From: Serripes groenlandicus
Lineage: Eukaryota > Mollusca > Bivalvia > Cardiida > Cardiidae
DNA length: 64,000 nt
Direction of reading: 5' to 3'
NCBI GenBank assembly: GCA_031761405.1
Contig: JASEVX010000011.1
Span: 18,335,106 to 18,399,105 of the forward strand
The notes beneath the pieces are model-generated. The model was not told where the DNA came from, did no database searches, and was given only the letters and a program-made list of their open reading frames with translations. Below are positions 22,761-61,782 of this stretch, piece by piece; the first letter of the stretch is position 1, and every line of letters begins with the position of its first letter. The position numbers were made by a program, and so were the translations under genes.

Positions 22761-22886
22761 CTTTTTTCATCACAAGGTCCTATATTTGTCTTTGATTGTA
22801 TGGTATATTATTTTAGCTCACCTGAGCACAGAGTACCCAAGATAAGCTATTTTGATCACCCTGTGTCAGTATCTGTGTGTGTCCAT

Positions 22887-24992: not shown

Positions 24993-25045
24993 GCAAAGAA
25001 AGACCAATAAAAATGTTTTCAGAATGAGCGCCGTCGGTCATTGAT

Positions 25046-34420: not shown

Positions 34421-37400
34421 ATTAAACTAACGGTCATTGGCCTCTGGTACCAAAAGGACCCGGGTTCGAATCCATGATGAGGTTCTGCATTAGAGATTAT
34501 TCACACAAACGGCGCGAGTACTGTTAGTCTGCAGGAAGCAGACATTGGAATAGATAAGTTTTAAACTCAAGGTTCATCTGCTACGCAGCCTGTTGCATGC
34601 GGTAAGGGTTAATAGCTGAAACATGAGTAAGAACTAACATGACCAAAACATAAAACTCCGGCAATTAACCAAGACTTCTTTTCACCTAACATTGTTTCCA
34701 CAACAACTGACTAATGTTACAATGACCTTGACTAATAACAGCAATGTGATTTGGCTCAATTGTGCAACTTACAGAAGAAAGAATATTAACGCTTCAGCGC
34801 CCACAGGCAATATTGAGAGTTTTGCAAACAATGCAGATTTCAGGCGAGTCAGCTCGTAACGAAATGTCTTACCTAAAATCAGCATTGTTTGCCTTTTAGT
34901 TACGAAAATAGTCCGAAACTTCATAAATTGAGAAAAATTTCAAACTTAATATGATTGTTTTAGTTGTTTAGCTTGGATCGTCGTTAGAATGGGTTAATAT
35001 TATTCTACATAAATATATCAAGAAGAAAATCACGGACAAGAAGATCTGAAGAACAAATGCCACAAGAACAAAACAAATGAAAAGCAAACTACCTGTAATT
35101 CTGATATACTTAATCCTGATGTTACTGATTTTCCCACACTGATAAACGTGTCAAGATGATGATGAATGACCAGTTGATCTGGAGGAGAACATTGCTGTGA
35201 ACTATGAGCCACCAGAAGAGGGTAATTATCAGAGTCAAGACAAAGGGGTAACTAATCCTTACCCCACAATGTCTCTTGTATTGCAAACAACAAGTATAAT
35301 GTTGAAGTGCTGGCTGCTTTGATAACACTATGTTAAAGAGTCATAAGCTTAAATATAAACTGGAAGTATCATTATAATAATGAATTGAAAACATTCTGTG
35401 AAAGACGGTAAATTGCTCACGTTTAGACATTTTTTCTTGCAATGTTTTCAAGGTGCCCCTGTCACAAGGCAATGAAATGCAATCCATATCAGGCCGAGGT
35501 TTCATTCTTATTTGAACTCTCAAAAGGTTTATATATTAAAAAGTAATGTCTCATTTAGTAACATAGCATGATAGGGTCTGAGTGCAACATAGTTGAAATA
35601 ATATCCCAGTTTAACTGAATCTTTTATTATTTAGGCCTCTGATCTTACATTATGACATTTATTTTGTATGTCGTGGTAAACAAAGGATTTATCTCTGATG
35701 TGTAAAAGTAATCTTAAACAGAAAGGGTTTGTTAATGGACAACATTTCTTTTATAAAGTATTTACCTTTATAAGAATTACTTATAGAGGTTGAAATGTTT
35801 CATGAGGACATTTTGCAATAAAAAGAATTGCAGCATTGCAAACGATTTCTTTAAATAATTGTAAGGAAACATATGTACTTGTACATCTCTGTTAATTGAT
35901 CTGTATTAGTGATTTACTTCTGATTTATTGTAGAAATGTGTGAGTATGCCAAGTGGATTGGCATAGACCTGATACAGAAACACTACCTATGTTTATAGCC
36001 AGAGGAATAAATGCCCCACTACCAGAACACTGGAAACCATGGTAAGTGCAAATTCAACATGGGCCAGTCAAGTCAAGCCAGGATAACTACTCTGTACTGC
36101 AATAACAGCTTTCTACTTTTAAAAAGAAATGCACTGATCTAAAATAATTGCTATTTACTTAAGAATTAAAACTCTGTTCTGAAATAAATGTTCACTCTGG
36201 AGTTATCAACTACACCCAGCTGGGCCATTCAGTTTTAGCTCCAAAATGGATGTTTTTTGTCTCAAATATGGCTATAGTAAAACTTTTTAATTATCCTCTC
36301 CTCCGAAAGGTATAGTGCATTATAATATTTAAATGATGCTTTGGTGATCTTACGAATTTCTTTCAAGCAAATCTTAATGAATCTAAAAGAATGGTCGCCA
36401 ATCGGCAGGGCTGATTTGCCTTAAGATATAGTTATTAATTGTTATCTAATAGCAGTGGAGCGATACTGGCGTTTCAATAAATGACAAAGGTCATGATTGA
36501 ATAGTGTCACTTGTTTTCCACTTTCAGCTTTAATGGTCTATATGGTAAGTATTAAGTTGCCTGTATGAGTATTAAATGGATAACTAATGCCAGAAAGCTA
36601 GAAAGCACATATAAAATGTATAGCCCATCGTAAATAACATCAAAATTGCATTAATTTAAATCAATCATCTAAAAGAAGTCCTTGTATAACGTAACAGCTT
36701 TGACTATTTCAGCCAAGATCCCAATAAGGACATATATACTTCAACTTTCCACAGGAGAGACTAGCTGGGACCATCCCTGTGATGAGATCTACACACAAAT
36801 GTCATTGAGGAAAGGGAGAAATATAGGAAAGCTCCACAAAGTAAGGAAATAGTTTTTTCGTATTGTCAGCCTCGGCATGATACTCTTAGTCTTTTCTTCT
36901 CTGTTGTATATCCATCCAATCATTTGTCAATCACTCTTCTATTCTCTGTTGTATATCCATCAAGCATTTGTCCATCACTATGTGTAGTATATCCATCCAA
37001 TCATTTGTCCATCACACTTCTCTTCTCTGTTCTATATCCATCCCAGCATTTGTTCCATCACACTTCTCTTCTCTGTTCTATATCCATCCAAGCATTTGTC
37101 CATTCACACTTCTCTTCTCTGATTTATATCCATCCAATCGTTTGTTCATCACAATTACAGTTGCTGATATTTGGCTGACGACACTGTTAAACCTGGTAAG
37201 ATGATGATCAATGAACAGGTTGATTCTGAAGAGGACTATTATGAAACTATGAGCCAACAGAAGATGGTAATTATCAGAGTTCTAGACAAAGATGGTTATC
37301 TAAACCTTACTCCGCAATGGGCAGGCTGATCTGGGTCGATACATTACGCAGGGGCCATAATGTGGTTTTCTCTCGGACGGCTCCCATGTTGTGTGTACTC

Positions 37401-38256
37401 AAAGAATCGGCTCAGTGAGGCGATTCTTATGATTACTGACAACATAGGGTTTTAAAGGTCAAATAAAGACTTGAGAATATGAGGTTCGACGTAGGGCTGT
37501 AGTTCATGCCCTTAAGCTTCAAAATACCTGGGAGTATAAGTTTAAGTGCTGTCTGCGTTGATTACATCTATGTTAAAGAGTACATTAGCTTAACAAAACT
37601 GGAAGTATCATTCATAATATGAATTGAAAACATTCTGTGAAAGGTGGCAAAATGCTCACTTTTAGGCATTTTTCCCCGCAATGTTTTCAAAGTGCCCCTG
37701 TCACAAGGGAATGAAATGCTATCCATATCATCCAAGGGTTGATTCTTTATTTGACCTCTTTAAACCATCCCTGTGATGATTTCTACAAACAAATGGTCAT
37801 TAAGGAAAGGATAAATATAAGAGAGCTCCACAACGTAAGGAATATTTTGTGTATAGTTATCCTCTTCATTGGTCTTCTCTTCTCAGTTGGCTACGGTCAT
37901 GGTGGAGTAACCCTTGGGTAAGGCACAATTTCTAGCCTTGTAATGTTTGTTTACCAGAGATAATAAAAAGTGAACTGTCGCCGTGATATAACTGAACTAT
38001 GTTGAAAAACACAATAAGCAAAACTTCTCTGTGTATATCCATCCAATTGTTGTCCATCACACTCCTCGTCTCTGTTGTATATCCATCCAAGCATTTGTCC
38101 ATCACGATGTTCTTCTCTGTTTGTATATCCATCCAAGCATTTGTCCTTGTTATTCTCTCTACTAGTATATCAAGCCAAGCATTTGTCCACCACAGTTCTC
38201 TCTCTGGTGTATATCCATCTAAGCATCACACTTCTATTCTCTGTTGTATATCCATC
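34421..38256. other. unmerged contig end duplicating 38457-42357
   Basis: This stretch matches 38457-42357 base for base apart from scattered one-base gains and losses, mainly in homopolymers, and it stops exactly at the N run. The right copy keeps the exons in frame while this one breaks them. It is best read as the unpolished end of a contig overlapping the next contig. Confidence 0.85.
35155..37266 (+). pseudogene. CEP164: CEP164 exons A0, B1, C1, A1, low-quality duplicate
   Basis: Exon images at 35155-35221, 35934-36041, 36713-36840 and 37161-37266 correspond to the exons at 39198-41350. They carry single-base deletions or insertions that break frame (for example a missing C in GATCCTGGAG at 35178). 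These are probably sequencing errors, not real mutations. Confidence 0.75.
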
Positions 38257-38456
38257 NNNNNNNNNNNNNNNNNNNNNNNNNNNNNNNNNNNNNNNNNNNN
38301 NNNNNNNNNNNNNNNNNNNNNNNNNNNNNNNNNNNNNNNNNNNNNNNNNNNNNNNNNNNNNNNNNNNNNNNNNNNNNNNNNNNNNNNNNNNNNNNNNNNN
38401 NNNNNNNNNNNNNNNNNNNNNNNNNNNNNNNNNNNNNNNNNNNNNNNNNNNNNNNN
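38257..38456. other. assembly gap, exactly 200 N
   Basis: A fixed-length run of N, so a scaffolding gap of unknown true size. Given the flanking overlap its true size may be negative. Confidence 0.98.
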
Positions 38457-38605
38457 ATTAAACTAACGGTCATTGGCCTCTGGTACAAAGGACCCGGGTT
38501 CGAATCCCATGATGAGGGTTCTGCATTAGAGATATTTCCACACAAACGGCGCGAGTACTGGTTTAGTCTGCAGGAAGCAGACATTGGAATAGATAAGTTT
38601 TAAAC
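38457..38605 (+). mobile_element. tRNA-derived SINE at the start of the right contig
   Basis: Head GGCCTCTGGTACAAAGGACC, GGGTTCGAATCCC, then CACACAAACGGCGCGAGTAC. Same as 34421-34570. Confidence 0.7.
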
Positions 38606-39197
38606 TCAAGGTTATCTGCTACGCAGCCTTGTTGCATGCGGTAAGGGTTAATAGCTGGAAACATGAGTAAGAACTAAGCATGACCAAACATAAAACTCCG
38701 GCAATTAACCAAGACTTCTTTTCACCTAACATTGTTTCACAACAACTGACTAATGGTTACAATGACCTTGACTAATAACAGCAATGTGATTTGGCTCAAT
38801 TGTGCAACTTACAGAAGAAAGAATATTAACTCTTTCAGCGCCACAGGCAATATTGAGATTTTGCAAACAATGCAGATTCAGGCGAGTCAGCTCGTAACGA
38901 AATGTCTTACCTAAAATCAGCATTGTTTGCCTTTAGTTACGAAAATAGTCCGAAAACTTTCATAAATTGAGAAAAATTTCAAACTTAATATGATTGTTTT
39001 AGTTGTTTAGCTTGGATCGTCGTTTAGAATGGGTTAATATTATTCTACATAAAATATATCAAGAAGAAAATCACGACAAGAAGATCTGAAGAACAAATGC
39101 CACCAAGAACAAAACAAATGAAAGTCAAACCTACCTGTAATTCTGATATACTTAATCCTGATGTTACTGATTTTCCCACACTGATAAACGTGTCAAG

Positions 39198-39264
39198 ATG
39201 ATGATGAATGACCAGTTGATCCTGGAGGAGAACATTGCTGTGAACTATGAGCCACCAGAAGAGG
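39198..39264 (+). CDS. CEP164: exon A0, original first coding exon
   Basis: ATG at 39198 (two more follow at once); donor GTAATT after 39264; phase 1 out; 22 codons, [20 protein letters not shown] and EE. An in-frame TGA lies about 30 bases upstream with no acceptor AG between, so this exon carries its own start. Most diverged of the A copies. Confidence 0.75.
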
Positions 39265-42200
39265 GTAATTATCAGAGTTCAAGACAAAGGGGGGTAATCT
39301 AATCCTTACCCCACAATGTCTCTTGTATTGCAAACAACAAGTATAATGTTTAAGTGCTGGCTGCTTTGATAACATCTATGTTAAAGAGTACATAAGCTTA
39401 AATATAAAACTGGAAGTATCATTTATAATAATGAATTGAAAACATTCTGTGAAAGACGGTAAATTGCTCACGTTTAGCATTTTTTCTTGCAATGTTTTCA
39501 AGGTGCCCCTGTCACAAGGCAATGAAATGCAATCCATATCAGGCCGAGGGTTTCATTCTTATTTGAACTCTCAAAAGGTTTATATTATTAAAAAGTAATG
39601 TCTCATTTAGTAACATAGCATGATAGGGTCTGAGTGCAACATAGTTGGAAATAATATCCCAGTTTAACTGAATCTTTTTATTATTTAGGCCTCTGATTCT
39701 TACATTATGACATTTATTTTGTATGTCGTTGGTAAACAAAGGATTTTATCTCTGATGTGTAAAAGTAATCTTAAACAGAAAGGGTTTTGTTAATGACAAC
39801 ATTTCTTTTATAAAGTATTTACCTTTATAAGAATTACTTATAGAGGTTGAAATGTTTCATGAGGGACATTTTGCAATAAAAAGAATTGCAGCATTGCAAA
39901 CGATTTCTTTTAAATAATTGTAAGGGAAACATAATGTACTTGTAACATTCTCTGTTAAATTGTATCTGTATTTAGTGATTTACTTCTGATTTATTGTAGA
40001 AATGTGTGAGTATGCCAAGTGGATTGGCATAGACCCTGATACAGAACACTACCTTATGTTTATAGCCAAGAAGGGAATAAATGCCCCACTACCAGAACAC
40101 TGGAAACCATGGTAAGTGCAAATTCAACATGGGCCAGTCAAGTCAAGCCAGGATAACTACTCTGTACTGCAATAACTGCTTTCTACTTTTAAAAAGAAAT
40201 GCACTGATCTAAAATAATTGCTATTTACTTAAGAATTAAAACTCTGTTCTGAAATAAATGTTCACTCCTGGAGTTATCAACTACAACCCAGCTGGGCCAT
40301 TCAGTTTTAGCTCCAAAATGGATGTTTTTTGTCTCAAATAATGGCTATAGTAAAACTTTTAATTATCCTCTCCTCCGAAAGTATAGTGCATTATAATATT
40401 TAAATGATGCTTTGGTGATTCTTTACGAATTTCTTTCAAGCAAATCTTAATGAATCAAAAGGAATGGTCGCCAATCGGCAGGGCTGATTTGCCTTAAGAT
40501 ATAGTTAATTAATTGTTATCTAATAGCAGTGGAGCGATACTGGCGTTTCCAATAAATGACAAAGGTCATGATGAATAGTGTCACTTGTTTTCCACTTTCA
40601 GCTTTAATGGTCTATATGGGTAAGTATTAAGTTGCCTGGTATGAGTATTAAATGGATAACTAATGCCAGAAAGCTAGAAAGCACATATAAAATGTATAGC
40701 CCATCGTAAAATAACATTCAAAATTGCATTAATTTAAATCAATCAATCTAAAAGAAGTCCTGTATTAACGTAACAGCTTTGACTATTTCAGCCAAGATCC
40801 CAATAAGGACATATATTACTTCAACTTTGCCACAGGAGAGACTAGCTGGGACCATCCCTGTGATGAGATCTACACACAAATGGTCATTGAGGAAAGGGAG
40901 AAATATAGGAAAGCTCCACAAAGTAAGGAAATAGTTTTTTCGTATTGTCAGCCTCGGCATGGATACTCTTAGTCTTTTCTTCTCTGTTGTATATCCATCC
41001 AATCATTTGTCAATCACTCTTCTATTCTCTGTTGTATATCCATCCAAGCATTTGTCCATCACTATGTGTAGTATATCCATCCAATCATTTGTCCATCACA
41101 CTTCTCTTCTCTGTTCTATATCCATCCAAGCATTTGTCCATCACACTTCTCTTCTCTGTTCTATATCCATCCAAGCATTTGTCCATCACACTTCTCTTCT
41201 CTGATTTATATCCATCCAATCGTTTGTTCATCACAATTACAGTTGCTGATATTTTGGCTGACGACACTGTTAAACCTGGTAAGATGATGATCAATGAACA
41301 GTTGATTCTGAAGGAGGACTATTATGAGAACTATGAGCCAACAGAAGATGGTAATTATCAGAGTTCTAGACAAAGATTGGTTATCTAAACCTTACTCCGC
41401 AATGGGCAGGCTGATCTGGGTCGATACATTACGCAGGGGCCATAATGTTGGTTTTCTCTCGGGACGGCTCCCATGTTGTGTGTACTCAAAAGAATCGGCT
41501 CAGTGAGGCGATTCTTATGATTACTGACAACATAGGGTTTAAAGGTCAAATAAAGACTTGAGAATATGAGGTTCGACGTAAGGGCTGTAGTTCATGCCCT
41601 TAAAGCTTCAAAATACCTGGGAGTATAATGTTTAAGTGCTGTCTGCGTTGATTACATCTATGTTAAAGAGTACATTAGCTTAACAAAACTGGAAGTATCA
41701 TTCATAATAATGAATTGAAAACATTCTGTGAAAGGTGGCAAAATGCTCACTTTTAGCATTTTTCCCCGCAATGTTTTCAAAGTGCCCCTGTCACAAGGGA
41801 ATGAAATGCTATCCATATCAATCCAAGGGTTTGATTCTTATTTGACCTCTTAAACCATCCCTGTGATGATTTCTACAAACAAATGGTCATTAAGGAAAGG
41901 GATAAATATAAGAGAGCTCCACAACGTAAGGAAATATTTTGTGTATAGTTATCCTCTTCATTGAGTCTTCTCTTCTCAGTTGGCTACGGTCATGGTGGAG
42001 TACCCTTGGGTAAGGCACATTTTCTAGCCTTGTACTGGTTTGTTTACCCAGAGATAATAAATAAGTGAACTGTCGCCGTGATATAACTGAACTAATGTTG
42101 AAAACACCAATAAAGCAAAACTTCTCTGTTGTATATCCATCCAATTGTTTGTCCATCACACTCCTCTTCTCTGTTGTATATCCATCCAAGCATTTGTCCA

Positions 42201-45200
42201 TCACGATGTTCTTCTCTGTTGTATATCCATCCAAGCATTTGTCCCTTGTTATTCTCTTCTACTAGTATATCAAGCCAAGCATTTGTCCACCACAGTTCTC
42301 TTCTCTGGTGTATATCCATCTAAGCATCACACTTCTATTCTCTGTTGTATATCCATCCAATCGTTTGTCTCTCTCACTTCTCTTCTCTGTTGTTTGTCCA
42401 TCCGATCAGTTGTCCATCACACTTCTCTTATCTGTTGTATATCCATCCAATCATTCGTCCATCACACTTCTCTTATCTGTTGTATATCCACCCAATCATT
42501 TTTCCACTACACTTCTCTTCCCTGTTGTATATCCATCCTATCGTGTGTTCATCACACTTCTCTTATCTTACGATGTTCTTCTCTGTTGTATATCAATCCA
42601 AGCATTTGTCCCTCGTTATTCTCTTCTACTAGTATATCAAGCCAAGCATTTGTCCACCACAGTTCTCTTCTCTGGTGTATATCCATCTAAGCATCACACT
42701 TCTATTCTCTGTTGTATATCCATCCAATCGTTTGTCTCTCTCACTTCTCTTCTCTGTTGTTTGTCCATCCGATCAGTTGTCCATCACACTTCTCTTATCT
42801 GTTGTATATCCATCCAATCATTCGTCCATCACACTTCTCTTATCTGTTGTATATCCATCCAATCATTTTTTCACTACACTTCTCTTACCTGTTGTATATC
42901 CATCCTATCGTGTGTTCATCACACTTCTTTCTCTTATCTGTTGTATATCCATCCAAGTATTCGTCCATCACCCTTCTCTTCTCTGTTTAATACCCATCGA
43001 ATCATTTGTCCATCACACTTCTCTTAGCAATCGTTTGTCCATCACACTTATCCTCTCTGGTGTTTATTCATCTAATGATTTGTTCATTTAACTTCTTTTG
43101 TCTGCTGTATATCCATCCAATCATTTGTCCATGACACTTCTCTTCTCTGTTGTATATCCGTCTAATTATTTGTCCATTACACTTCTCCTCTGTGGTGTGT
43201 ATCCATCTAATCATGTGTCCATTACACTTCTCCTCTGTGTTGTATATACATCGAATCATTTGTCCATCACACTTCTCTTCTCTTTTGTATATCCATCCAA
43301 TCATTTGTCCATCACTATTCTCTTATCTGTTGTGTATCTATCCAATCATTCGCCATCACACTGCTCTTCTCTGTTGTATATCCACCCAATCATTTATCCA
43401 TCACACTTCTCTGCTCTGCTGTATATCCATCAGTGGTATATCCATCCAAAAATGTGTTCATCACACTTCTCTTCTCTGTTTTAATCATTTGTCCATGTCA
43501 CTTCTCTTCGCTGTTGTATATCCATCCAAAAATGTGTCCATCACATTTCTCTTCTCTGTTGTATATCCATCCAATCATTTGTCAATCAAACTTCTCTTGT
43601 CTATTGTATATAAATCAAATCGTGTGTCCATCACACTTCTTTTGTCTGTTGTATATGCATTCAGTCAGTTATCCATCACACTTCTCTTTTCTGTTGTATA
43701 TCTATCCAACCGTTTGTCCATCACAATTCTCTGCTGTGTTGTTTATCAATCCAATCGTTTGTTCATCACAGTTCCACTTGCTGATAGTTTGGCTGACGAC
43801 ACTATTAAACCTGTCAAGATGATTACCAATGAACAGTTGATTCTGGAGGAGGACTATGATGAGAACTATGAGCCAACAGAAGATGGTAATTATCAGAGTT
43901 CTAAACCAAGATGGGTAATCTAAACCTTACTCCGCAATGTCTCTGTTATTGCAATCAAAACCCTTATAATAATTGAGCCGTCCCACGAGAAAACTAACAT
44001 TACGGTCTCTATGGTATGTATCGACCCGGATCAGCTAAAGCATGCCGCACATGCTTACCCAGTCAGACACTTTTAGCTAGGATTTTCTGTTTCAGGAATC
44101 ATAACTCTATACCTCTATCCCCCTGATACGGAATGTATCGGCCCGCATAAGTATGCACGGACTGCGCAGGCTGATCTGGGTCGATATACGCAGAGGCCAT
44201 AATGTTGGTTTTCCCGCGGGGCGGCTCCCATGTTTTGTGTTCTCAAAAGAGCCAGCCCGGTGAGACAAATAGTGTGAGTACCTGCAACATTGGGTTTAAA
44301 GGTAAAATAAAGATGTACGAATATTCTACGTCTGTAAGGGCTGTAGTTCATTCCCTTAAACCTTCACAATACCTGGAAGTATAATGTTTAAGTTCTGTCT
44401 GCTTTGATAACATCTATGTTTAAGAGTACATTAGCTAAAGAGAAAACTTGAAGTATCATTCATAATAATGAATTGAAAACATTCTGTGAAAGGCGGTAAA
44501 TTCCTCACGTATAGCATTTTTTCCTGCAATGATTTCAAAGAGCCCCTTTACAAGGGAATGTAATCAATCCATATCAGGCCGACGGTCTAATTCTTATTTA
44601 ACCTTCAAAAAGGTTTATTTTATCTACTTAAATGATGAATCCTGTCCAACGTTGATTCTTAGACCCTTAAACCATGTTGTGTGGGTACATATTTAAAAGA
44701 AATATCTCATTTAGTACACAAAACATAGCATGCTAGGGTCTGAGTACAACATAGTTGGAATAATATCCAGTTTAACTGTATTTTTTTTTATTTAGATGTT
44801 AATATTCTTACATAATGACATTTATTTTGTATGTCAAATATTTACGTTTATAAATAATAATTTGTTCTCACATAGGTTGAAATGTTTCAGTAGGGACATT
44901 TTGCAATAAAAAGAATTGCAGCATTGCCAACGATTTAGCTTAAATAATAAGGGAAATGTCGTACTGTCATCATAATGTACTTGTAACATTCTCTGTTAAA
45001 TTGTATCTGTATTTAGTGATTTACTTCTGATTTATTGTAGAAATGTGTGAGTATGCCAAGTGGATTGGCATAGACCCTGATACAGAACACTACCTTATGT
45101 TTATAGCCAAGGAGGGAATAAATGCCCCACTACCAGAACACTGGAAACCATGGTAAGTGCAAATTCAACATGGGCCAGTCAAGTCAAGCCTGTATAACTA

Positions 45201-48200
45201 CTCTGTACTGCAATAACTGCTTTCTACTTTTAAAAAAATGCACTGATCTAAAATAATTGCTCTTCACTTTAGACTTAAAATTCTGTTCTAAAATAAATGT
45301 TCATTCCGGGGGTTATTAATTACAACCCAGCCGGGTCATTCATTTTTTAGCCCCAAAATGGATGATTGTTGTCTCATAGAATAGCTAAATAGCTGATTTG
45401 CCTTAAACTATAGTTATTTAATTGTTAATTAATAGCAGCTGAGCGATACTGGTCCTCTTGAGCCTCTTGTTTCCAATACATGACAAAAGTCATGATGAAT
45501 AGCGTCACTGGTTTTCCACTATCAGCTTAAATGGTTGATGTGGGTAAGTATCACGTTGCCTGGTAATAATTGTATGAATAATTAATGCGAGAAAGCAATA
45601 AATCACATATAAAGTGTACTGCCCATCGTGAAATAACATTCAAAATTGTAACAAATTGCAATCAAGCAATCTAAAAGAAATCCTGTATTTACGTAACTGC
45701 TTTGACTATTTCAGCCAAGATCCCAAGAAGGACATATATTACTTCAACTTTGCCACAGGGGAGACTAGCTGGGACCATCCCTGTGATGAGATCTACACAA
45801 AAATGGTCATTGAAGAAAGGGAGAAATATAGGAAAGCTCCACAAAGTAAGAAATAGTTGTAGTATTGTCAGTCTCGGCATGGAGACTCTTAGTCTTCTCT
45901 TCTCTGTTGTATATCCATCCAATAATTTGCCCATCACTCTCTGTAGTATATCCATCCAATCATTTGTCCATCACACTTCTCTTCTCTGTTTTGTATCCAT
46001 CCAATCGATTGTTCATCACAATTACAGATGCTGATACTTTGGCTGACGACACTGTTAAACCTGTCAAGATGATGGTCAATGAACAGCTGATTCTGGAGGA
46101 GGACTATGAGCCAACAGAAGATGGTAATTATCTGAGTTCTAGACAAAGATAGGTACTCTAATTGAGCCGTCCCTCGAGAAAACCAACATTATGGATTCTG
46201 CGTAATGTACGAGGGTATAGCCAGAAATTCGCGGAATTGTTCAATAAAATTAAAACCTTTGGCAGCATGTCTTAAAAACATTCATACAATAATCATAAGC
46301 TAATTTGTAATGCGGAAGGCTGATTTCACCGTATAGCATGAAATAATGGCAATAGTTTTTGTATTGTCAGTCTCGGCATGGAGACTCTTAGTCTTCTCTT
46401 TTCTGTTGTATATCTATCCAATCATTTGTCAATCACACTTCTATTCTCTGTTGTATATCCATCCAAGCATTTGTCCATCACTCTTTGTAGTATATCCATC
46501 CAATCATTGGTCCATCACACTCCTCTTCTCTGCTGTATATCCACCCAAGCATTTGTCCACCAATCTCTGTAGTATATCCATCTAATCATTTGTCCATCAC
46601 ACTTCTCTTCTCTGTAGTATATCCATCAAAGCATTTGTCCATCATGTTTCTCTTCTCTGATTTATATCCATCCAATCGATTGTCCATCACAATTACAGTA
46701 GCTGATATTTTGGCAGACGACACTCTTAAACCTGTCAAGCTGATGATCAATGAACAGTTGATCCTGGAGGAGGACTATGATGAGAAATATGAGCCAACAG
46801 AAGATGGTAATAATCAGAGTTCTAGACACAGATTGGTTATCTAAACCTTACCCCACAATGTGCAGGCTGATCTGGGTCGATACATTACGCAGGGGCCATA
46901 ATGTTGGTTTTCTCGCGGGACGGCTCAAATGTTGTGTGTACTCAAAAGAACCGGCTCAGTGAGACAATTCATATGAGTTCCCGCAACATAGGGTTTAAAG
47001 GCTGTAGTTAATGCCCTTAAACCTTCGAAATACCTGAAGTATAACATCTATGCTAAAGAGTACACTAGCTTTAAAAAACAACTAGAAGTATCATTCATAA
47101 TAATGAATTGAAAATATTTTGTGAAAGGTGACAAAAAGCTCACTTTTAGCATTTTTTCTTGCAATGTTTTCAAAGTGCCCCTGTCACAAGGGAATGAAAT
47201 GCAATTCATATACATCCGAGGGTTTCATTCTTATTTGACCTCTAAAAAGTTTTTTTTAATCTTCTGAACTTATGAATCCTGTCCAACTTTGGTCCATATT
47301 AGACCCTCAAAGCATGATGTGTGGGTACATATTCAAAATATCATTTAGTACTCATAACATAGCATGCTAGTCCGAGTACAACATAGTTGGAATAATATCC
47401 AGTTTCATATAGGCCTCTGATTTTGATGTTAATATTCTTACATTATGACATTTATTTTGTATGTCGTTGGTCAACAAAGGTTTTTATCTCTGATGAGTAA
47501 AGGTGATCTTAAACAGAGAAGGTTTTGTTAATGACAACATTTCTTTTATAAAATATTTACCTTTATAAATAATAATTTGTTTTCACAGAGGTTGAAATGT
47601 TTCAGTTGGGACATTTTGCAATAAAAAGAATTACAGCATTGCAAAAGATTTCTTTTAAATAACTGTAAGGGGAACATAATGTGCTTGTAATATTCTCTGT
47701 TAAATTGTATCTGTATTAGTGATTTTCCTCTGATTTATTGTAGAAATGTGTGAGTATGCCCAGTGGATTGGCATAGACCCTGATACAGAACACTACCTTA
47801 TGTTTATAGCCAAGGAGGGAATAAATGCCCCACTACCAGAATACTGGAAACCATGGTAAGTGCAAATCCAACATGGGCCAGTCAAGTCAAGCCAGTATGA
47901 CTACTCTGTACTGCAATAACTGCTTTCTACTTTAAAAAAAATATGCACTGATCTAAAATAATTGCTCTTTACTTAAGATTTAAAATTGTGTTCTAAAATA
48001 AATGTTCATTCCGGAGGTTATTAATTACAACCCAGCTGGGCCATTCATTTTTTAGCTCCAAAATGGATGATTATTGTCTCATATAATGGCTATAGTAAAA
48101 CTGTTAATAATCCTCTCCTCTGAAAGTATAGTGCTGATTTTTAAAAAATAATTGTTCAAATGTTCCTTTGGTGATTCTCTACGAATTTCCTACAAGCAAA

Positions 48201-51200
48201 TCTTAATAATTCAAAGGAATGGCCGCAAAGTGGCCGAGCTGATTTGCCTTAAACTATAGTTATTTAATTGTTAATTAATAGCAGCTGAGCGATACTGGTC
48301 CTCTTGAGCCTCTTGTTTCCAATACATGACAAAAGTCATGATGAATAGCGTCACTTGTTTTCCACTATCAGCTTAAATGGTTGATGTGGGTAAGTATCAC
48401 GTTGCCTGGTAATAATTGTATGAATAATTAATGTGAGAAAGCAAGAAATCACATATAAAGCGTACTGCCCATCGTGAAATAACATTCAAAATTGTAATCA
48501 ATTGCAATCAAGCAATCTAAAAGAAATCCTGTATTCACGTAACTGCTTTGACTATTTCAGCCAAGATCCCAATAAGGACATCTATTACTTCAACTTTGCC
48601 ACAGGGGAGACTAGCTGGGACCATCCCTGTGATGAGATCTACAAAAATATGGTCATTGAGGAAAGGGAGAAAGATAGGAAAGCTCCACAAAGTAAGAAAT
48701 AGTTTTAGTATTGTCAGTCTCGGCATGGAGACTCTTGGTCTTCTCTTCTCTGTTGTATATCCATCCAATAATTTGTTCATCACTCTCTGTAGTATATCCA
48801 TCCAATCATTTGTCCATCACACTTCTCTTCTCTGTTTTATATCCATCCAATCGATTATTCATCACAATTACAGTTGCTGATACTTTGGCTGACGACACTG
48901 TTAAACCTGTCAAGATGATGGTCAATGAACAGCTGATTCTGGAGGAGGACTATGATCAGAACTATGAGCGAACAGAAGATGGTAATTATCAGAGTTCTAG
49001 ACAAAGATGGGTAATCTAATTGAGCCGTCCCTCGAGAAAACCAACATTATGGTTTCTGCGTAATGTACGATGATATAGCCAGAAATTCGCGGAATTGTTC
49101 AATAAAATTTAAACCTTTGGCAGCATGTCTTGAAAACATTCATACAATAATCATAAGGTAATTCGGAAGGCTGATTTCACCGTATAGCATGTAATAATGG
49201 CAATAGTTTTTGTATTGTCAGTCTCGGCATGGAGACTCTTAGTCTTCTCTTCTATGTTGTATATCCATCCAATCATTTGTCCATCACAATTCTATTCTCT
49301 GTTGTATATCCATCTAAACATTGGTCCATCACTCTCTGTAGTATATCCATCCAATCATTTGTCCATTACACTTTTCTTCTCATTTGCATATCCATCCAAG
49401 CATTTGTCCATCACACTTCTCTTCTCTAATGTATATACATCCAATCGTTTGTTCATCACAATTACAGTTGCTGATTTGTTTGCAGACGGTACTGTTAAAC
49501 CTGTCAAGATGACGATCAATGAACAGCTGATTCTGGAGGAGGACTATGATAAGAACTATGAACCAACAGAAGATGGTAATGATCAGAGTTCTAGACAAAG
49601 ATGGATACTCTAAACCTTACCCCACAATGTCTCTTTTATTGCAAACGAAAACCCTAATTGAGCCGTCTCGCGAGAAAACCAACAAAATGGTATCTGCGTA
49701 ATGTATCGACCTGGATCGTCTTAAGCTTGCCGCGCAGGCTAACCCGGACAGACCTTTTTCGTCTCCTGTTGATTTTCTGTTTCACGAAATATTACTCTAT
49801 ACCTCTATTCCCCTGAGACGGAATATGTCGGCCCGTATCAGTCTGCGCAGGCTGATCTGGGTGGATACATTACGCAGAGGCGATACTGTTGGTTTTTTCG
49901 GCGGGACGGCTCCTATGTTATGTGTACTCAAAAGAACCAGCTGAGTAAGACAATTCTTTTGAGTACCCCCAACATTTGGTTTGAAAGTCAAATAAAGATA
50001 TAAGACTATGATATTCAACCTTCATCTCAAGGTCGGTATGGGCTGTAGTTAATGCCCTTAACCCTTTCACACATACAAGTAATCTGCAGCAGGTGAATTT
50101 GAACATAATGTTATTTTAAATTGAATGGCTAACCAATGTTTTCAAAAGTAGTCTACTTCAGAGACGCCAGAAAGCGTCTATAAGTGGGAAAGACTTATTG
50201 TCACAAGATAATAAAATGTTTTGAGTTCTTTACAGCTTATCTATGATACCATGTGTATTATTGCTTTAACCCTTTCCTGCATACAAAATATCTGCAGCAG
50301 AAGACGTTGAAAACATCTGAACACAAATATGGAAAACCTCGAAAATTGAAAAAAGTTTTCATACTGTTACAGAAGGAGAAATTGCTCATAATGAGTTGCA
50401 TGTTGCTAAATGCATGTGCAAGAGGGGAAGGGTTAATTTTAGTATTCATGAAATATTGAACTGATATGAGACATTTTTCTCTTCATTTAGATGAGCTTCT
50501 GTTTACAATGTAATGTTTTTAATCTATTTGTAAAGCTTTAAAGAAAACAGGCAATCCATTAAATGTTGATGGGAAAAAGAAAAAGGAAATAATGGGAACA
50601 GAAACGGTATGTGTTTTTTTCTGAAACTGAATGACTTAACTATGTTTAGCTCCTCTTACTAAAATCCAATCAAGCCTATGGCATGGGGGTGTCCGTCTGT
50701 GATTTTAAACTGGGTCAATTGTGATGAAATCCACTCGTTCCCTTCAAAATGTTTTAATCCGTTGAGAACTGTTGTTGTAATGGCATGAAAAATGTGGTGT
50801 AAAAAAACATTTCAAAAGTTTTCTTTTAAGATACCATTTGCCTTATTATGTCTCCCCTTCTCCGAAAGGGAGACATACTTTATTTGTCATTATTCTTATT
50901 CTTCTTATTAGTATTACGATTCCCCGACCTTTGGTTGGGAATCGTATTGTTTTTATACTGTTTTTCTTTCTTTCTTTCTTTCTTTCTTTCTCTATTTTTT
51001 TTCTCCTATCCAATCGTTGTCCGAGCGATATCTTGTGAACGAATGGTCAGATAATATTAAAACTTGAAACATAGATAGATGGCAATGTGAAGTTGTGCAG
51101 CTTGCAAGAATTATAACTCGGGGCCACTTTGTTGCAAGGTTATCTCCCCTTGTTCAATATTTTAATAGTGTAAACTTTATCCAGAGCAGAACTCAAAAAC

Positions 51201-53092
51201 TACCCGATGAAATTGATTGAAACTTGAAACACAGATAGATGGCAATGTGAAGTTGTTATTATTACTCTAGGCCAATTTGTTGCAAAGTTGTCTCCCCTTG
51301 TTCAATATTTTAATAGTGTAAACTTTGTCCATAAACTACCTGATGGAATTGATTGAAACAGATGGCAATGTGAAGTTGTGCACCTTGCAATAATTATAAC
51401 TCTGGGCCACTTTGTTGCAAAGTTGTCTCCCCTTGTTCAATATTTTAATAGTGTAAACTTTGTCCATAAACTACCTGATGGAATTGATTGAAACTTGTAA
51501 CATAGATAGATGGCAATGTGAAGTTGTGCACCTTGTAATAATTATAACTCTGGGCCACTTTTTTGCAAAGTTATCTCCCCTTGTTCAATATCTTAATAAT
51601 GTAAACTTTGTTCAGAGCATAACTCGTAAACTACTTGATTGAATTGATTGAAACTTGGATCATAGATAGATAGCAATGTGAAGTTGTACACCTTGCAAGA
51701 ATTATAACTCTGAGCCACTTATCTCCCCTTGTTCAATAAAAAAGTTTTTTAGGGGAGACATTACTACTAGTTTTTATATAATTTCACACGGATGTATCTT
51801 TAGTGACCATTACGATATGACTTTATTTCATTTTGATTGGTAAAAAAACAAAGCTATCAGAGGATGTATTTTCTTCTGATATGGCAAAAGTGAAATTTTT
51901 AGAGCATAGAAATCGATATTATTTTACAGGAATGTGCTCTGGTGACTTTCTACTAGATTCCTTCATTTAATTTATAATTTTGGTAAAAAAAAACAGGAAT
52001 TCCAAGGGAAGGAACTGTCTTGCCTTATATGGATCTTGTGAAAAATCCTCTCCTGAATATATATATATATATATTTTAAGTTCTATCATTTTTCTTTAAG
52101 TCACGGTGATTTGCCTAAAAGTATGTAGGTCTTGCTGTTTAACTCTTTGTGAAAACCTTATTCTCCTCAAAACATATTGGTTTGATTTTTTCAATTTATT
52201 TCACAGAAAGCGACCTTCCTATAAATGACATATTCAACAGAGGATAATGTTGTTTTTTTGGCAAAATTGTAGTCCTATCTGACTGTGGCAACTGTATCAA
52301 ACATGAGTGCTAAGCTCAATGTTCAAGTTTAGATTATTTACTTTTCCACAACATGTACAAGTGCTAAAGCTTTCAAACTAAGATCATAATTATATCTTTC
52401 TCACATTGCACCCAGTAAGTAATGAGTGTCATCTATTTTGGGGATACAACACATGAATTTCAGTTCATTTTGAGAATAAGACATAGCTTCTTCATGTTTT
52501 GTTTGATGGATTTTAAAATATTTATTTTTTCGATTAAACTTGCATGTTTGGTCAAAACACAGAATGGTGAGACATATACTTACGTATATTTATAGTTTGT
52601 CAAAACTAATTCAAGATCAAACATTTCGAAAAATAATTTCCATTGTTTTCTTCTTCCAACTTGAGCAAACTTGTCTGTGAGAAGTCAAAGAATTTCGTTT
52701 AAAAAAACAAATACTCTTTGATGTGCTTTATATGGAAAATCTTTAAAATGAAAGTATAACTATTTTATAGAAATGAAAACATTGTGGCAAAAGGATAAAT
52801 GGCTCATCATGAGCCATTTCACCTTTTATTACAATATTTTTAAAACTCGTTTGCTGCAGATACATCACTTTGTCTGAATGTAGGAAAGGGTTTCAGTTCA
52901 GGCATCTACTTTTCCAGCAACGGGGTCCATTGAAGGCAGATCCGAGTCTAGGTACTCCAGCCATGCATAAACAGGCCTCCCTCGAGCCAATGACGGTATC
53001 CGTTCAACAACCAGGACAGCTCGCCACTCTGAGGAACTCCCCAGGGGCAGTTCCACCCTTTGCCACAACTAAATCATCTCCATTTAAGAGAT
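39198..53092 (+). CDS. CEP164: CEP164, 5' part, with tandemly amplified N-terminal exon cassettes
   Basis: CEP164 is a distal-appendage protein of the mother centriole; its N-terminal region with the WW domain recruits TTBK2 for ciliogenesis. The ancestral layout A-B-C is clear: [12 protein letters not shown] (A0), [18 protein letters not shown] to EHWKPC (B), and [20 protein letters not shown] (C), matching the start of human CEP164. After C1 come A1, A2, B2, C2, A3, A4, B3, C3, A5, A6, then D and E. All A copies begin and end in phase 1, B runs 1 to 2 and C runs 2 to 1, so any run of cassettes, or direct use of D after C or A6, stays in frame. If all are used, the protein has three WW domains separated by about 35-residue linkers. 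No exon beyond E is recognised, and an HSPA12 gene lies opposite at 63.4 kb, so the locus may be partial or have very long introns. Confidence 0.8.
40000..40111 (+). CDS. CEP164: exon B1
   Basis: 112 nt between TTATTGTAG and GTAAGT, phase 1 to 2. Encodes [18 protein letters not shown], then [16 protein letters not shown]. The last Trp is the first W of the WW domain. About 110 bases after the donor the intron matches the introns after B2 and B3. Confidence 0.85.
40792..40922 (+). CDS. CEP164: exon C1 (WW domain core)
   Basis: 131 nt between CTATTTCAG and GTAAGG, phase 2 to 1: [20 protein letters not shown], then [20 protein letters not shown] and APQ. [16 protein letters not shown] is the WW core with its second Trp and the Pro. 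Confidence 0.88.
40970..41242 (+). repeat. 45-bp minisatellite before exon A1
   Basis: About six units of the type TATATCCATCCAATCATTTG followed by TCCATCACACTTCTCTTCTC, the last running into the exon acceptor. Confidence 0.9.
41243..41350 (+). CDS. CEP164: exon A1
   Basis: 108 nt between TCACAATTACAG and GTAATT, phase 1 to 1: [19 protein letters not shown], then [16 protein letters not shown]. The part before MM corresponds to the untranslated leader of A0. No B exon follows before A2. Confidence 0.7.
41851..41925 (+). pseudogene. CEP164: 5'-truncated exon C copy
   Basis: [20 protein letters not shown] then APQ, with the donor GTAAGG kept but the first 55 or so bases and the acceptor missing. 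It lacks the WW core and cannot splice as exon C. The A1-to-A2 interval has thus lost B and half of C. Confidence 0.7.
41980..42009 (+). CDS. candidate 30-nt microexon (speculative)
   Basis: 30 nt between TCTTCTCTTCTCAG and GTAAGG, phase 1 to 1, encoding GYGHGGVPL plus split codons. Good splice sites and the local phase; no family support and no second copy at the other cassettes. Confidence 0.2.
42120..43771 (+). repeat. 45-bp minisatellite, expanded block before exon A2
   Basis: About 36 units. The 45-bp period is a multiple of three and the unit has no stop in three frames, so long reading frames occur in all forward frames ([15 protein letters not shown] type repeats). A 367-bp higher-order unit occurs twice (42205-42571, 42572-42938). 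Confidence 0.9.
43772..43885 (+). CDS. CEP164: exon A2
   Basis: 114 nt. Its acceptor (GTTCATCACAG) lies six bases earlier than in the other copies, adding two codons and keeping frame: [20 protein letters not shown], then [17 protein letters not shown]. The reading frame continues upstream through the minisatellite without a stop. Confidence 0.7.
43974..44230. mobile_element. foldback element downstream of exon A2
   Basis: GAGCCGTCCCACGAGAAAAC and ATCGACCCGGATCAGC face CTGATCTGGGTCGATA and GGTTTTCCCGCGGGGCGGCT. About 60-bp arms. Half-elements recur after A1, A3, A4 and A5. Confidence 0.75.
45041..45152 (+). CDS. CEP164: exon B2
   Basis: 112 nt, splice sites as in B1; differs in protein only at KEG for KKG. 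Confidence 0.85.
45715..45845 (+). CDS. CEP164: exon C2
   Basis: 131 nt, splice sites as in C1; [12 protein letters not shown] and [13 protein letters not shown] core unchanged. Confidence 0.85.
46028..46123 (+). CDS. CEP164: exon A3
   Basis: 96 nt, phase 1 to 1, with a 12-nt in-frame deletion that removes four residues (DENY) before [37 protein letters not shown]. Confidence 0.7.
46699..46806 (+). CDS. CEP164: exon A4
   Basis: 108 nt, phase 1 to 1: [35 protein letters not shown]. The first Met of the pair is Leu. It is preceded by a copy of the intron that normally follows C, without a C exon. Confidence 0.7.
47744..47855 (+). CDS. CEP164: exon B3
   Basis: 112 nt; changes EYAQWIG for EYAKWIG and PEYWKP for PEHWKP. 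Splice sites intact. Confidence 0.85.
48561..48691 (+). CDS. CEP164: exon C3
   Basis: 131 nt; [19 protein letters not shown] core unchanged, splice sites intact. Confidence 0.85.
48874..48981 (+). CDS. CEP164: exon A5
   Basis: 108 nt: [35 protein letters not shown]. Acceptor in the minisatellite as for A1. Confidence 0.7.
49468..49575 (+). CDS. CEP164: exon A6
   Basis: 108 nt: [35 protein letters not shown]; donor GTAATG. Like A4 it follows an intron copy without a C exon. Confidence 0.7.
49660..49916. mobile_element. foldback element downstream of exon A6
   Basis: Same family and arms as 43974-44230 (GAGCCGTCTCGCGAGAAAAC against GGTTTTTTCGGCGGGACGGC). Confidence 0.75.
50059..50440. mobile_element. 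two degenerate MITE copies before exon D
   Basis: About 50059-50200 (TTAACCCTTTCACACATACA to AGTGGGAAAG) and 50266-50440 (TTAACCCTTTCCTGCATACA to GGGGAAGGGTTAA). Confidence 0.65.
50551..50606 (+). CDS. CEP164: exon D, lysine-rich segment
   Basis: 56 nt between GAAAACAG and GTATGT, phase 1 to 0: [19 protein letters not shown] Lys-rich run directly after the WW domain is what CEP164 has. An earlier acceptor (GTAAAG, 50535) would also keep frame and add LKKTG. Confidence 0.6.
50848..51770. repeat. GTCTCCCCTT element with internal tandem units
   Basis: GTCTCCCCTTCTCCGAAAGGGAGACATA at the left includes a hairpin; AGGGGAGACATTAC ends it. Inside, five units of about 125-160 bp share GATGGCAATGTGAAGTTGT and ATCTCCCCTTGTTCAATATT. 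Confidence 0.7.
52739..52895 (+). mobile_element. MITE fragment abutting exon E
   Basis: Central palindrome GGCAAAAGGATAAATGGCTC / GAGCCATTTCACCTTT and right end GTAGGAAAGGGTT, about 23 bases before the exon E acceptor. Confidence 0.65.
52918..53092 (+). CDS. CEP164: exon E, Ser/Pro-rich segment (3' end uncertain)
   Basis: Acceptor CTACTTTTCCAG, phase 0: [52 protein letters not shown]164 has a low-complexity region here. A MITE right end lies just upstream of the acceptor and a MITE fragment follows from about 53095, so the donor is unclear (GTGCAT at 53093 is one choice). Confidence 0.5.
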
Positions 53093-54189
53093 GTGCATGT
53101 TGCTTCAATGTTTTTAATGTTCTCTGCTGCAGATTTGTTGTATGGGTGAAAAAGAGGTGTAGTACTTTATAGCAGTTGTCTATGAACACTAAACTAGACG
53201 TCTTTTGTAAGTGCAAAATTGTTTTAATTGGTTAAGGACCTTGTAATAGTGTGGATGTTGGAATTGAGGTGAAATGTCAACATATATTGGCATTTAAAAC
53301 AATACTAGATATGCTGTTATGTTAACAAAACTAAAACGTCTGTCTTATGTTAACATTAATTAACCCTTTTCTTTGAAACTCACGGCAGCAGACGAGTTTT
53401 GTAAACGATAAAAGAAGAAACTGCTCATGATGATCCATTTTCCTTGATAAATAATTGCAGAAATCAGTTTAAAAGATATGACATTGGAGAAAACATCTAC
53501 GAACAAAGAGGAGAAATTACTCGCGAATAATGATTAAATTTCTGATGTCTTTCATAGCTTTAGATAACGGACATTTGTCATGTTCTTTAATTTTGTTTGA
53601 CACTCAAACCCTATGTTGTGGGTACTCAAACGAATCGTCTCACTGAGAAGATTTGTTTAATTGCCACATAATTTATCATTGGGGTTTTATTTTGTAATAA
53701 GAGAGATATTTTCTGGGAACGATTTGTTTACTTGCTCTAGATAACGGACATTGTTCATGTTCTTTAATTTTGTTTGACACGCAAACCCTATAATAGAGTA
53801 CTCAAAATAATCGTCTCACTGAGAAGGCTTGTTTAAGTGCCACATCATTGGGGTTTATTGTGTAATAAGAGATATATTTGCGGGGAATGATTTTCCCCCT
53901 TATGTAGTCCTTGAGATCTGGTCTTAATCCAAAGAAGCCTACTGCAAAAGACATCTGTATCAGAAAAACTTATAAATGAATGTCATTTCTGATCTTTTTG
54001 TCTAATTCTAATTTACAATGGATCTATAATCATTTAGCACAAAGCCAAAAACAAATTTGTTTTTAGAATTCCTTCAAATTCATATGACACATAGTAATTT
54101 GAGCCGTCCAGCGAGAAAACCAACAGTGTGGACTCCGCGTAAAGTATCGATCCGGATCAGTCTTGTATGGCCTTCACATTTTGAATGAA
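53093..54189. other. repeat-rich, no gene seen
   Basis: MITE fragments (53095-53150, 53365-53460), two copies of a CTAGATAACGGACATT ... ACCCTATGTTGTGGGTACTC repeat (53560, 53735), and a half foldback element at 54108-54165. Confidence 0.5.
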
Positions 54190-54755
54190 ACTCATCTAAG
54201 CAAGAAGTGCTTAGACGAGCTATTGGTATCCCTCTTCGATCTGTCCATCTAACCGTTTACATTTTCCTTTTTTTAACAAATGGACCAATTACAAAATATT
54301 TTTAAACAAATTGTCCTTTAATGACCCTCTACCAAAATTGTTCAATCTGTTCAACTTAACTACACAAGAGGGTCATCAGACTTAGAAATAAAAACATCTT
54401 TATACCATATCTCGACCGTAATCACTGACATAATTTCAAAATAAATTCACATTAGTTTTCCTTTAGTGACACTCTTCCGAAATTGATTACGCCATTCTGC
54501 TCCACTGCACTAGATTGCTGCTTAATAAGCTAAAAATAGGAAAACATTTAAATGACATCTGATCCAAATAAAAAAGAAGCATGTTAATTGACTGGCCCTC
54601 TACCAAAAGTGGTCAATCGGTTTTGATGTACTGCACAAAATGGCTGCTATGTCTTAAGTTAGACAAATATATAACCAGCATCGTTTCTAACTTATTCAAT
54701 TACAACAATAAATATATGGTAAGCGATACAGGACCAACATGGTCCTCTTGTTATG
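54190..54755 (+). repeat. AGCTCACC-type interspersed repeat
   Basis: Diverged head CTCATCTAAGCAAGAAGTGC / TTAGACGAGC and tail CATGGTCCTCTTGTT. Confidence 0.55.
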
Positions 54756-56029
54756 GATTTTATACATGAGGATTTGCAGTGTGTTAGCCCATGTTTTTTA
54801 CATATTAAATATTGTATGTTTATTGTTGCTTTACTAGGGTCCCCCGGGTTCTGTAAGTGTGTTATAGCAAGAATATAAAACATCTCATACCATACACAAT
54901 AATTAAACCCTTTCCCTGACATGTTTAGTTGGTCCACTCTGTTTTTAATACTCAAATACATGTATTCAGTGTTCAGTGATTGGAGGACGGGTTTCATGTT
55001 CTAGATGTAGCTGATGGAAGTTCAACACATGCTTTACCTTTATCAGAAACATGTATATCTCTTTAGATTTTACAAAATTGAAAGTGTCTGCAGAAAGTAA
55101 TGGACGATCAATGTATAGGATATTTTGAGTCTGAGTTGAAATAGTTATGTAAAGAGGAAACCGTGTTCATTAATACATGAAATGTATCCTTTCACCGTGT
55201 TTTTAATCCTTTCCCACTTGCTGAAGTATTTTTAAGCATCTGCATCATATGACTTTTGAAAACATTGTGGCAATAGTAGAAATTACTGATAATGAGCTAT
55301 TTCTTCTTTTGTAAGAGAATTTTCAATTCTATTCAGTAATTATAAATTCTTTCAAAGTTTTCAAAGTTGTCTCCTGTTAATTTGTTAAGTTAAGTATCCA
55401 AGCTTTATTTGAGAGGTTCTAAAAATGACCTATCAAGTGAATAAAGGGAAAATTGATATTTCAGTGAATGGATTTTAACTAGACATATATTTTGTGCACA
55501 ACACTAATATTATTATGCCCTCCTTTAGAGCACAAAAAGCTTGTCCGATTGATTACTGCAGAATGCTTGGGCATAATGTCCTCAAATTTGTCAAATTTGG
55601 CAGGGAACTATATTGTTTGCATGCCCCTTTTAAAAAAAACGAAAGATAGCTGGCCTCCCTGAACGATGTACCCAGATCTAAGTGCATTTGTTTTGCCAAT
55701 AAGTGTTCATCCTAGGTTTCAAGTTATTCAAAATGACTGTTGAATGTGTATCAGTACGGAGGAATGGCAACCAGTATAGCATTGCAACCACCCATTTGCA
55801 ACCACTCATTTGGGCATAATAAATAAAGACATGAAAGGGTACATGTTAACTGAGATGATGCAGTTTAATTTGATACATTTGAGCAGTTTCTTCATTTCCC
55901 ACAACATGAGCTTTACTTCCAAAGCTTCGAGATATTACTTTTTACTTCCTTGGATGTTTTCAAAGAAGAGTACATTAAAAGGATAATATCAGTTAAACTG
56001 TTAACTCTTTCATACATGCAGATGCATAT
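54756..56029. other. no gene seen
   Basis: AT-rich, with a decayed MITE centre near 55255-55400. I found no exon that continues CEP164 here. Confidence 0.4.
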
Positions 56030-61575: not shown

Positions 61576-61782
61576 CAAGCTTCCATAAATTCGCTTTCAG
61601 CAGCCAAAGGGTAAATCGAATGTTTTTGTTAACGTACTGAAGCTACGCAGCAAACAGTATCAAGTCTGGTCAGACTGCGACAGATGAGCGCTGGCTGACA
61701 TGGATCTATGTTCTGGTGAGCTGGCTGGCTTGGGTCTATATTTTGATGACACAAACTTCCATAAAATCGCTATCGAATGGGT

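Follow-up and report, generated by a model that had tools for sequence, protein, structure and literature searches.

The window analysed here, a 64,000-nucleotide stretch of the Serripes groenlandicus genome, carries three tandem copies of the exons for the N-terminal headpiece of CEP164, and we put the probability at about one half that this locus is a headpiece-only, polyvalent CEP164 paralog, formed by copying and tandem duplication and encoding a putative multi-headpiece binder of TTBK2 or another partner. The CEP164 gene of the usual kind lies on another contig (C963).

An intact array of headpiece exons

All 14 exons of the predicted order A0 B1 C1 A1 A2 B2 C2 A3 A4 B3 C3 A5 A6 D are found between 39198 and 50606, and their coordinates bear out the copy numbers originally proposed (three for the B+C pair, seven for exon A). 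The phases were also read correctly, since the internal A exons and every A-B-C set enter and leave in phase 1, so that any combination is joinable in frame. Each exon is open (14/14) and followed directly by GT (14/14), AG directly precedes the 13/13 exons after A0, and no disabling lesion was found in any of them (0/14). The acceptor found on the internal A exons is missing from A0, where an in-frame TGA stands 30 nt 5' of the ATG, and A0 was therefore taken as the start exon; the A0-B1-C1 product gives a Pfam WW match (E 8e-11). The features of the array and its surroundings are as follows:

34421..38256, + strand, duplicate of 38457-42357 left by an unmerged contig end (assembly artefact; end-to-end alignment)
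38257..38456, no strand, 200-N scaffold gap, the sole run of at least 5 N in the window
38457..56027, + strand, incomplete copy of the 5' region of CEP164, lengthened by tandem cassettes (collinear with C963 ~134.0340-134.0456 Mb, minus strand)
39198..39264, + strand, A0, start exon (splice/ORF check)
40000..40111, + strand, B1, helix exon of cassette 1 (splice/ORF check)
40792..40922, + strand, C1, WW exon of cassette 1 (splice/ORF check)
40974..41235, + strand, 45-bp minisatellite before A1
41243..41350, + strand, A1, internal A copy, 3' splice site newly gained (splice/ORF check)
41854..41925, + strand, 3' fragment of exon C, donor kept, no acceptor
42121-43774, 46393-46691 and 49245-49463, other 45-bp minisatellite arrays
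43772..43885, + strand, A2, internal A copy (its acceptor lies 6 nt 5' of those of the other A exons, frame kept)
45041..45152, + strand, B2
45715..45845, + strand, C2 (WW)
46028..46123, + strand, A3 (12-bp in-frame deletion)
46699..46806, + strand, A4
47744..47855, + strand, B3
48561..48691, + strand, C3 (WW)
48874..48981, + strand, A5
49468..49575, + strand, A6
50536..50606, + strand, D, lysine-rich exon
52918..53172, + strand, exon E, possible last exon (homology to C963 exon E up to ~53048)

Exon E of the window lacks the donor seen in the single-copy C963 gene and is open to a TAG at 53170-53172. The 45-bp minisatellite unit of the window also occurs in intron C-D of C963.

A partial duplicate of CEP164

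The original prediction took the array to be CEP164 itself. This identification does not hold, as C963 is where the coiled-coil and C-terminal exons lie, in a gene with a single cassette; the narrower claim of a CEP164 N-terminal helix plus WW domain does, the single-copy C963 version matching human CEP164 1-109 at E 1e-39 (sequence match to structures 7nwj/7o3b, E 1e-39). On C963, exons A-E occur once each, followed by downstream exons in order and on the same strand. The seven downstream exons that were searched (three coil and four others; a further candidate at C963rc 66263 was left out) all match C963, and none matched the window's contig (C113). CEP164 as known from human and from Mercenaria (P0124), Ruditapes (P0123), Mya (P0126) and Dreissena (P0165) shares the N-terminal helix-WW domain with the window locus, and the C963 gene is of this usual kind, with one headpiece and a long coiled-coil and C-terminal part in the same gene, whereas the window has three A-B-C sets and no match to the seven exons.

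Collinearity between the window and C963, traced as a chain of filtered blastn/tblastx matches (unfiltered whole-region comparisons being swamped by dispersed repeats), stops before exon F, in the intron after exon E. C963 was also considered as a haplotig of the window locus and rejected, being a 150.8-Mb contig with further CEP164 exons and with introns that differ by 22-24%. Broadly, these sequence comparisons identify the window locus as a partial CEP164 duplicate and not as the animal's own CEP164.

Such a duplicate would have arisen when ~11.5 kb of CEP164, starting ~1 kb 5' of the ATG and extending past exon E into the next intron, was inserted as a copy in a second large contig. Tandem duplication at the new site would have fused intron C-D to the 5'UTR of exon A, and a 3' splice site gained at the junction would have made what had been the first exon internal, with added codons that were once intron and 5'UTR; repeated duplication would then have yielded the three A-B-C sets. 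The sequence, the junction, the absence of the seven searched exons from the window's contig and the divergence of the B and C exons below that of the introns are observed.

Divergence and constraint

Between cassettes, the B+C exons differ at 5/243, 9/243 and 8/243 sites (2.1-3.7%) and the introns at 126/903, 156/1116 and 104/992 (10.5-14%), the exons thus being 3-7x less diverged than the introns (Fisher 5e-9, 1e-6 and 2.5e-4). This much lower divergence suggests that the exons have been under coding constraint ever since they were duplicated in tandem. For B+C, the ratio of non-synonymous to synonymous differences between cassettes (pN 0.015-0.036, pS 0.047-0.048, with 2 synonymous changes per pair) is by itself no proof of constraint, and part of the low divergence may be due to local gene conversion, since among cassettes the 60-nt flanks of B differ by little more (0.017-0.050) than B does. 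For the A exons, no clear slowing relative to the surrounding sequence is seen.

Compared with C963, pN is 0.072-0.092 and pS 0.057-0.113 for A+B+C, exon E gives 0.094 and 0.090, and exon D has 9 nonsynonymous and 0 synonymous changes; in the tree, the stem branch to the window cassettes measures 0.16 vs. 0.029 for C963. With pN close to pS against C963, the stem of the window copy has changed fast or under relaxed constraint. In a neutral-decay simulation under four settings, all 13 tested exons stayed intact in 0, 0, 1 and 0 of 4000 runs, numbers that serve as a guide only, given independent exons, present sequences as the start and assumed rates (branch lengths chosen near half the intron distances, indel rate assumed at one tenth of that).

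These figures bear on whether the array is simply a copied 5' piece of the gene, untranslated or in decay, that is still intact by chance and yields no multi-domain protein. The missing downstream exons (seven searched) and exon E donor would fit such decay, as would the near-equality of pN and pS against C963, the dead C fragment and the unequal A copies; the gap between exon and intron divergence among cassettes speaks against it, as do the 14/14 intact exons, an outcome that neutral runs almost never give, and we consider it unlikely.

Tandem headpieces in other animals

The predicted Pacific oyster (C. gigas) gene LOC105317981 encodes P0001 (663 aa, four headpieces; its cluster represents 8 member sequences) and P0002 (491 aa, three headpieces), without a long coiled coil, and its structure model contains four folded CEP164-type domains. 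It resembles the putative product of the window locus as a headpiece-only CEP164-like predicted protein with tandem domains; it differs in that it is uncharacterised, originated inside oyster CEP164, and has interdomain linkers of ~55-66 residues, whereas the window linkers derive from A exons. The cichlid Pelmatolapia mariae has a 467-aa protein (P0003, annotated NEDD4-like isoform X6) that likewise carries three tandem CEP164 headpieces, but it belongs to a fish lineage and its repeats are near-identical, which may reflect very recent duplication or a gene-model error. In a tree of 40 chosen rows, 39 of them different (divergent tandem proteins P0005, P0012 and P0220-P0224 left out), the window cassettes group with C963 (99/96) and the oyster repeats fall inside oyster CEP164 (99/93). 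The tree places the tandem forms of the window, C. gigas and the cichlid each in its own lineage; those of the window and of C. gigas do not share a common descent there, and the C. gigas gene of the window's build seems to have a separate origin.

Two or more headpieces at >=30 bits were found in at least 11 proteins among the 250 matches listed (about 8000 candidates scored per search), and none of the best 120 matches listed was a tandem form from an oyster other than C. gigas. No paper describing a tandem CEP164 form was among the open-literature matches listed, subscription journals and preprints being outside the scope of that search. Chains with several WW domains are otherwise found in the NEDD4 family, YAP1, KIBRA and PRPF40A, and tandem-WW proteins use avidity; theirs are bare WW domains, whereas each WW of the window sits within the CEP164 helical bundle. 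Trypanosoma has three CEP164 proteins in one species, CEP164A/B/C, that differ in location (PMC7833213).

Of the multi-WW CEP164 first predicted from this locus, the identity as CEP164 is lost; in-frame joining remains, and a predicted oyster gene has such a build. A multi-domain product is plausible, and a single transcript may join two or three cassettes. It could instead be that one B-C pair is spliced per transcript, giving several single-headpiece proteins that differ at few residues. In favour of this, the sets do not differ in phase, any B could follow A0 or an internal A, and the B exons differ only at sites that change an amino acid, with 0 synonymous differences in 3/3 pairs where the C exons have 2 in each pair. 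However, the open linker of former intron and 5'UTR in 6/6 internal A exons suits joining after an upstream C, both of two different A acceptors keep the frame, and the prediction for the oyster counterpart is a single chain with several domains, so that alternative use of cassettes appears rather improbable.

TTBK2-contact residues

The contacts of human CEP164 with TTBK2 include D10, Q11, Y73, F75, F77 and W84 (PMC8752127). Q11 is kept in 7/7 A exons of the window, and Y73, F75, F77 and W84 in 3/3 C exons; D10 is E in 6/6 internal A exons (6/7 of all A), R93 is T, T and K in C1, C2 and C3, and S82 to T, I83 to S and F91 to I are changes relative to C963 beside the binding face. The predicted contact residues are thus mostly kept. 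A multi-headpiece protein that has switched to a new partner unrelated to TTBK2 would be in line with the stem acceleration and with these changes beside the face (including D10 to E in internal A), but we hold it doubtful, as Y73, F75, F77, W84 and Q11 are retained in every exon carrying them and the human S82A change left TTBK2 binding unaffected in the account of PMC8752127.

Reality of the cassettes

The segment 38457-42357 opens directly behind the 200-N gap, and 34421-38256 aligns to it at 96.6% over 3927 columns (18 mismatches, 111 gap openings). A possible fourth cassette at 35900-38256, a degenerate set left of the gap, was rejected as this unmerged contig overlap. For the partial duplicate at 38457-56027, similarity also reaches back to 34265 on the left contig. 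That the additional cassettes are assembly echoes of a single one is very hard to credit, even with a genuine echo of such kind adjoining the array left of the gap, since all cassettes lie inside one gap-free stretch and their introns, alignable too, differ by the 10.5-14% given above.

Putative function and significance

As a headpiece-only paralog, the locus would encode a soluble product, at most about 590 aa long, that lacks a centriole anchor, carries as many as three CEP164 headpieces and would bind TTBK2 or another proline-rich partner with avidity. It would then either compete with full-length CEP164, as a natural decoy or brake, or cluster its partner at a distance from the centriole. 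Among the early steps in starting a cilium is the recruitment of TTBK2 by CEP164, and the overexpressed human N-terminal region is reported to be dominant-negative for cilia (both from PMC8752127), which is why the window paralog is possibly a TTBK2 decoy. It is tempting to speculate, although we think it improbable on present evidence, that animals repeatedly make polyvalent CEP164 decoys, with an anchor-less copy and multiplied TTBK2-binding headpiece arising separately in heterodont clam, Pacific oyster and cichlid; if so, the timing and site of cilium formation would be under a genetically encoded brake.

A headpiece-only tandem version with signs of constraint, together with a separate predicted oyster counterpart, would amount to a natural use of the dominant-negative effect, and the window paralog would offer a ready system for how TTBK2 avidity sets ciliogenesis. 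The locus also records how a first exon can become internal, by gaining a splice site at the border of an intron that bears a minisatellite.

Organization of the exon array

Copies of the exons that encode the CEP164 headpiece, i.e., the N-terminal helix region and WW domain (exon A, helix exon B and WW exon C), were found together with the lysine-rich exon D at the coordinates and in the order given by the original prediction:

39198-50606, forward strand: exon series A0 B1 C1 A1 A2 B2 C2 A3 A4 B3 C3 A5 A6 D
41243-41350, forward strand: exon A1, with an internal GGTAAG that could serve as donor and shorten it
41854-41925: exon C fragment with a donor and no acceptor (excluded from counts)

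All 14 exons are open and followed by GT, and AG precedes each of the 13 downstream of A0. A0 has no counterpart of the acceptor found in the internal A exons, and an in-frame TGA stands 30 nt 5' of its ATG; it was thus taken as the start exon. Since all internal A exons, all A-B-C sets (cassettes) and D start in phase 1, cassettes can indeed be joined in frame in any number, as had been proposed. The predicted product of all exons joined through D is 503 aa long, and exon E, read past its lost donor as far as the TAG at 53170-53172, would add 84 residues. A4 and A6 each contain an additional in-frame CAG that could serve as acceptor.

An extra set at 34421-38256 proved false, as it repeats 38457-42357 end to end (3927 alignment columns, 18 mismatches, 111 gap openings), the match in the latter beginning at the first base 3' of a 200-N gap. 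It looks like an unpolished contig end left unmerged with its neighbor, i.e., 34421-38456 is a false gap in which contig ends overlapping by 3.8-3.9 kb were joined by 200 N, and its exon copies were excluded from every count. Elsewhere, a further short tandem repeat lies at ~59665-61600, with frames that read like repeated DELADLGLYAWVYIL, and past the window (window-relative ~68900-113750) matches recur four times at a spacing of ~14.9 kb, suggesting a large tandem repeat.

CEP164 proper on another contig

The locus had been taken for CEP164 itself, which it is not. A whole-genome search (1.76 Gb, 1739 contigs) with a query from exon C2 gave seven matching places at E ≤ 0.001, six in the window cluster and one on a 150.8-Mb contig, hereafter C963. 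The first 60 kb of C963 examined held one strong match each for A, B, C and D, with E next, and its headpiece matched human CEP164 residues 1-109 at E 1e-39. Candidate exons picked out by their composition and splice signals follow on that strand, with similarity to the middle, coiled-coil and C-terminal portions of CEP164 from bivalves. Seven of these (three coil and four other exons; one more candidate lies outside this set) were searched against the whole genome by a method that scores its best candidates; all seven matched C963 and none the contig carrying the window, and three further matches fell on other contigs at E above 4. Exon E matched both loci.

Collinear similarity between the loci spans C963rc ~16929-28453 (reverse-strand coordinates, where position p equals C963 134062500 - p) and window positions 38457-56027, or from 34265 on the left contig. 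The copied piece thus runs from ~1 kb 5' of the ATG to inside the intron preceding exon F (C963rc 30126), and at window 53048-53206 ~0.95 kb of C963, including the exon E donor, is missing or replaced.

Formation of the array

The sequence suggests how the array may have formed, in order and steps. Internal A exons begin ...CAATTACAG-TTGCTGATATTTTGGCTGACGACAC-TGTTAAACCTGTCAAG ATG..., of which the second part is exon A 5'UTR, and the C963 intron C-D near C963rc 21335 reads ...AAAATTCCACGTGCTGACATTTGGCAGATGACAC..., corresponding to the internal A exon start. A tandem duplication thus seems to have fused intron C-D to the exon A 5'UTR at a short ACAC match. The acceptor TTACAG is common to A1 and A3-A6, that of A2 lies 6 nt upstream, and both preserve the frame, so that former intron and 5'UTR would have become a linker 14 codons long (16 codons for A2). 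At the site of the window acceptor C963 has no AG; one occurs a short distance beyond it, in a GGCAG that A4 and A6 share. A 45-bp minisatellite 5' of the internal A exons is also present in the C963 intron C-D (C963rc ~20040-21320), and may therefore have driven later unequal exchanges.

Evidence for and against constraint on the cassettes

Between cassette pairs, B+C exons differ at 5/243, 9/243 and 8/243 positions vs. 126/903, 156/1116 and 104/992 for introns (Fisher 5e-9, 1e-6 and 2.5e-4). Nonsynonymous sites are far under the intron rate (P 1e-9, 1e-6 and 1e-4), and synonymous sites weakly so (P 0.055, 0.055 and 0.17). In neutral simulations with independent exons, rates that we chose from intron distances and an assumed indel rate, all 13 exons stayed intact in 0, 0, 1 and 0 of 4000 runs. 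However, several observations count against constraint: pN is close to pS between C963 and the window copy, pS between cassettes is based on two changes per pair, B flanks are conserved almost as well as B itself (which could reflect local gene conversion), and the internal A exons, which differ by 7-13% in 14 of the 15 pairs (A3-A5, 2%), do not clearly evolve more slowly than the sequence around them. With a window stem length of 0.16 vs. 0.029 for C963 in the tree described below, we read this pattern as an initial burst of changes following the duplication and later constraint on B and C.

Tandem headpieces in other lineages

With the predicted product as query, the top protein among the matches listed was Crassostrea gigas LOC105317981 (663 aa, 42% identity, 80% of the query), which carries four headpieces (three in the isoform X1 entry) and lacks a long coiled coil. 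Its AlphaFold model (mean pLDDT 63, pTM 0.24) predicts four domains that are folded (pLDDT by block mostly 75-91) and joined by disordered linkers, and all five structures matching it at E < 0.001 were CEP164 N-terminal structures. At least two headpieces occur in 11 of the 250 proteins among the matches listed, including a cichlid protein annotated NEDD4-like (three headpieces), with Eutreptiella among the sources of the other eight. No paper on tandem CEP164 headpieces was found among the matches listed in a literature search.

A tree built from 40 selected rows unites the window cassettes in one group (100/98) adjoining C963 (99/96), the closest rows outside this genome being Ruditapes and Mercenaria; oyster repeats form one group (97/94) within oyster CEP164 (99/93), and cichlid repeats lie beside cichlid CEP164 (99/93). 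Each tandem form grouping with the CEP164 of its own lineage suggests separate origins.

In Pfam annotations the headpiece also shares a chain with SAM/U-box domains in Mya arenaria (protein-search rows P0010, P0013) and, in rotifers (P0065, P0066, P0075), with PARP or ADP-ribosyltransferase domains, so that it may have been reused as a module. CEP164-like proteins under seven LOC names in the electric fish Brachyhypopomus gauderio (P0107, P0116, P0119, P0120, P0230, P0235, P0244) suggest a possible family expansion.

The putative TTBK2-binding face and its possible implications

According to PMC8752127, Y73, F75, F77, W84 and D10/Q11 of human CEP164 take part in TTBK2 binding, and R93 supports the fold. 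The single human domain binds the TTBK2 peptide weakly (~60 uM). The window retains Y73, F75, F77 and W84 in 3/3 C exons and Q11 in 7/7 A exons; it differs from the human residues by D10E (all six internal A exons), S82T and M83S, and position 93 carries T, T and K instead of R in C1, C2 and C3, respectively (C963 has S, I and K at 82, 83 and 93). Given the weak single-domain affinity, several domains per chain could matter. If made, the window protein would carry the putative TTBK2-binding headpiece without the remainder of CEP164, and would thus probably act as a decoy or cluster its partner in solution, instead of serving as the centriolar docking protein first proposed.
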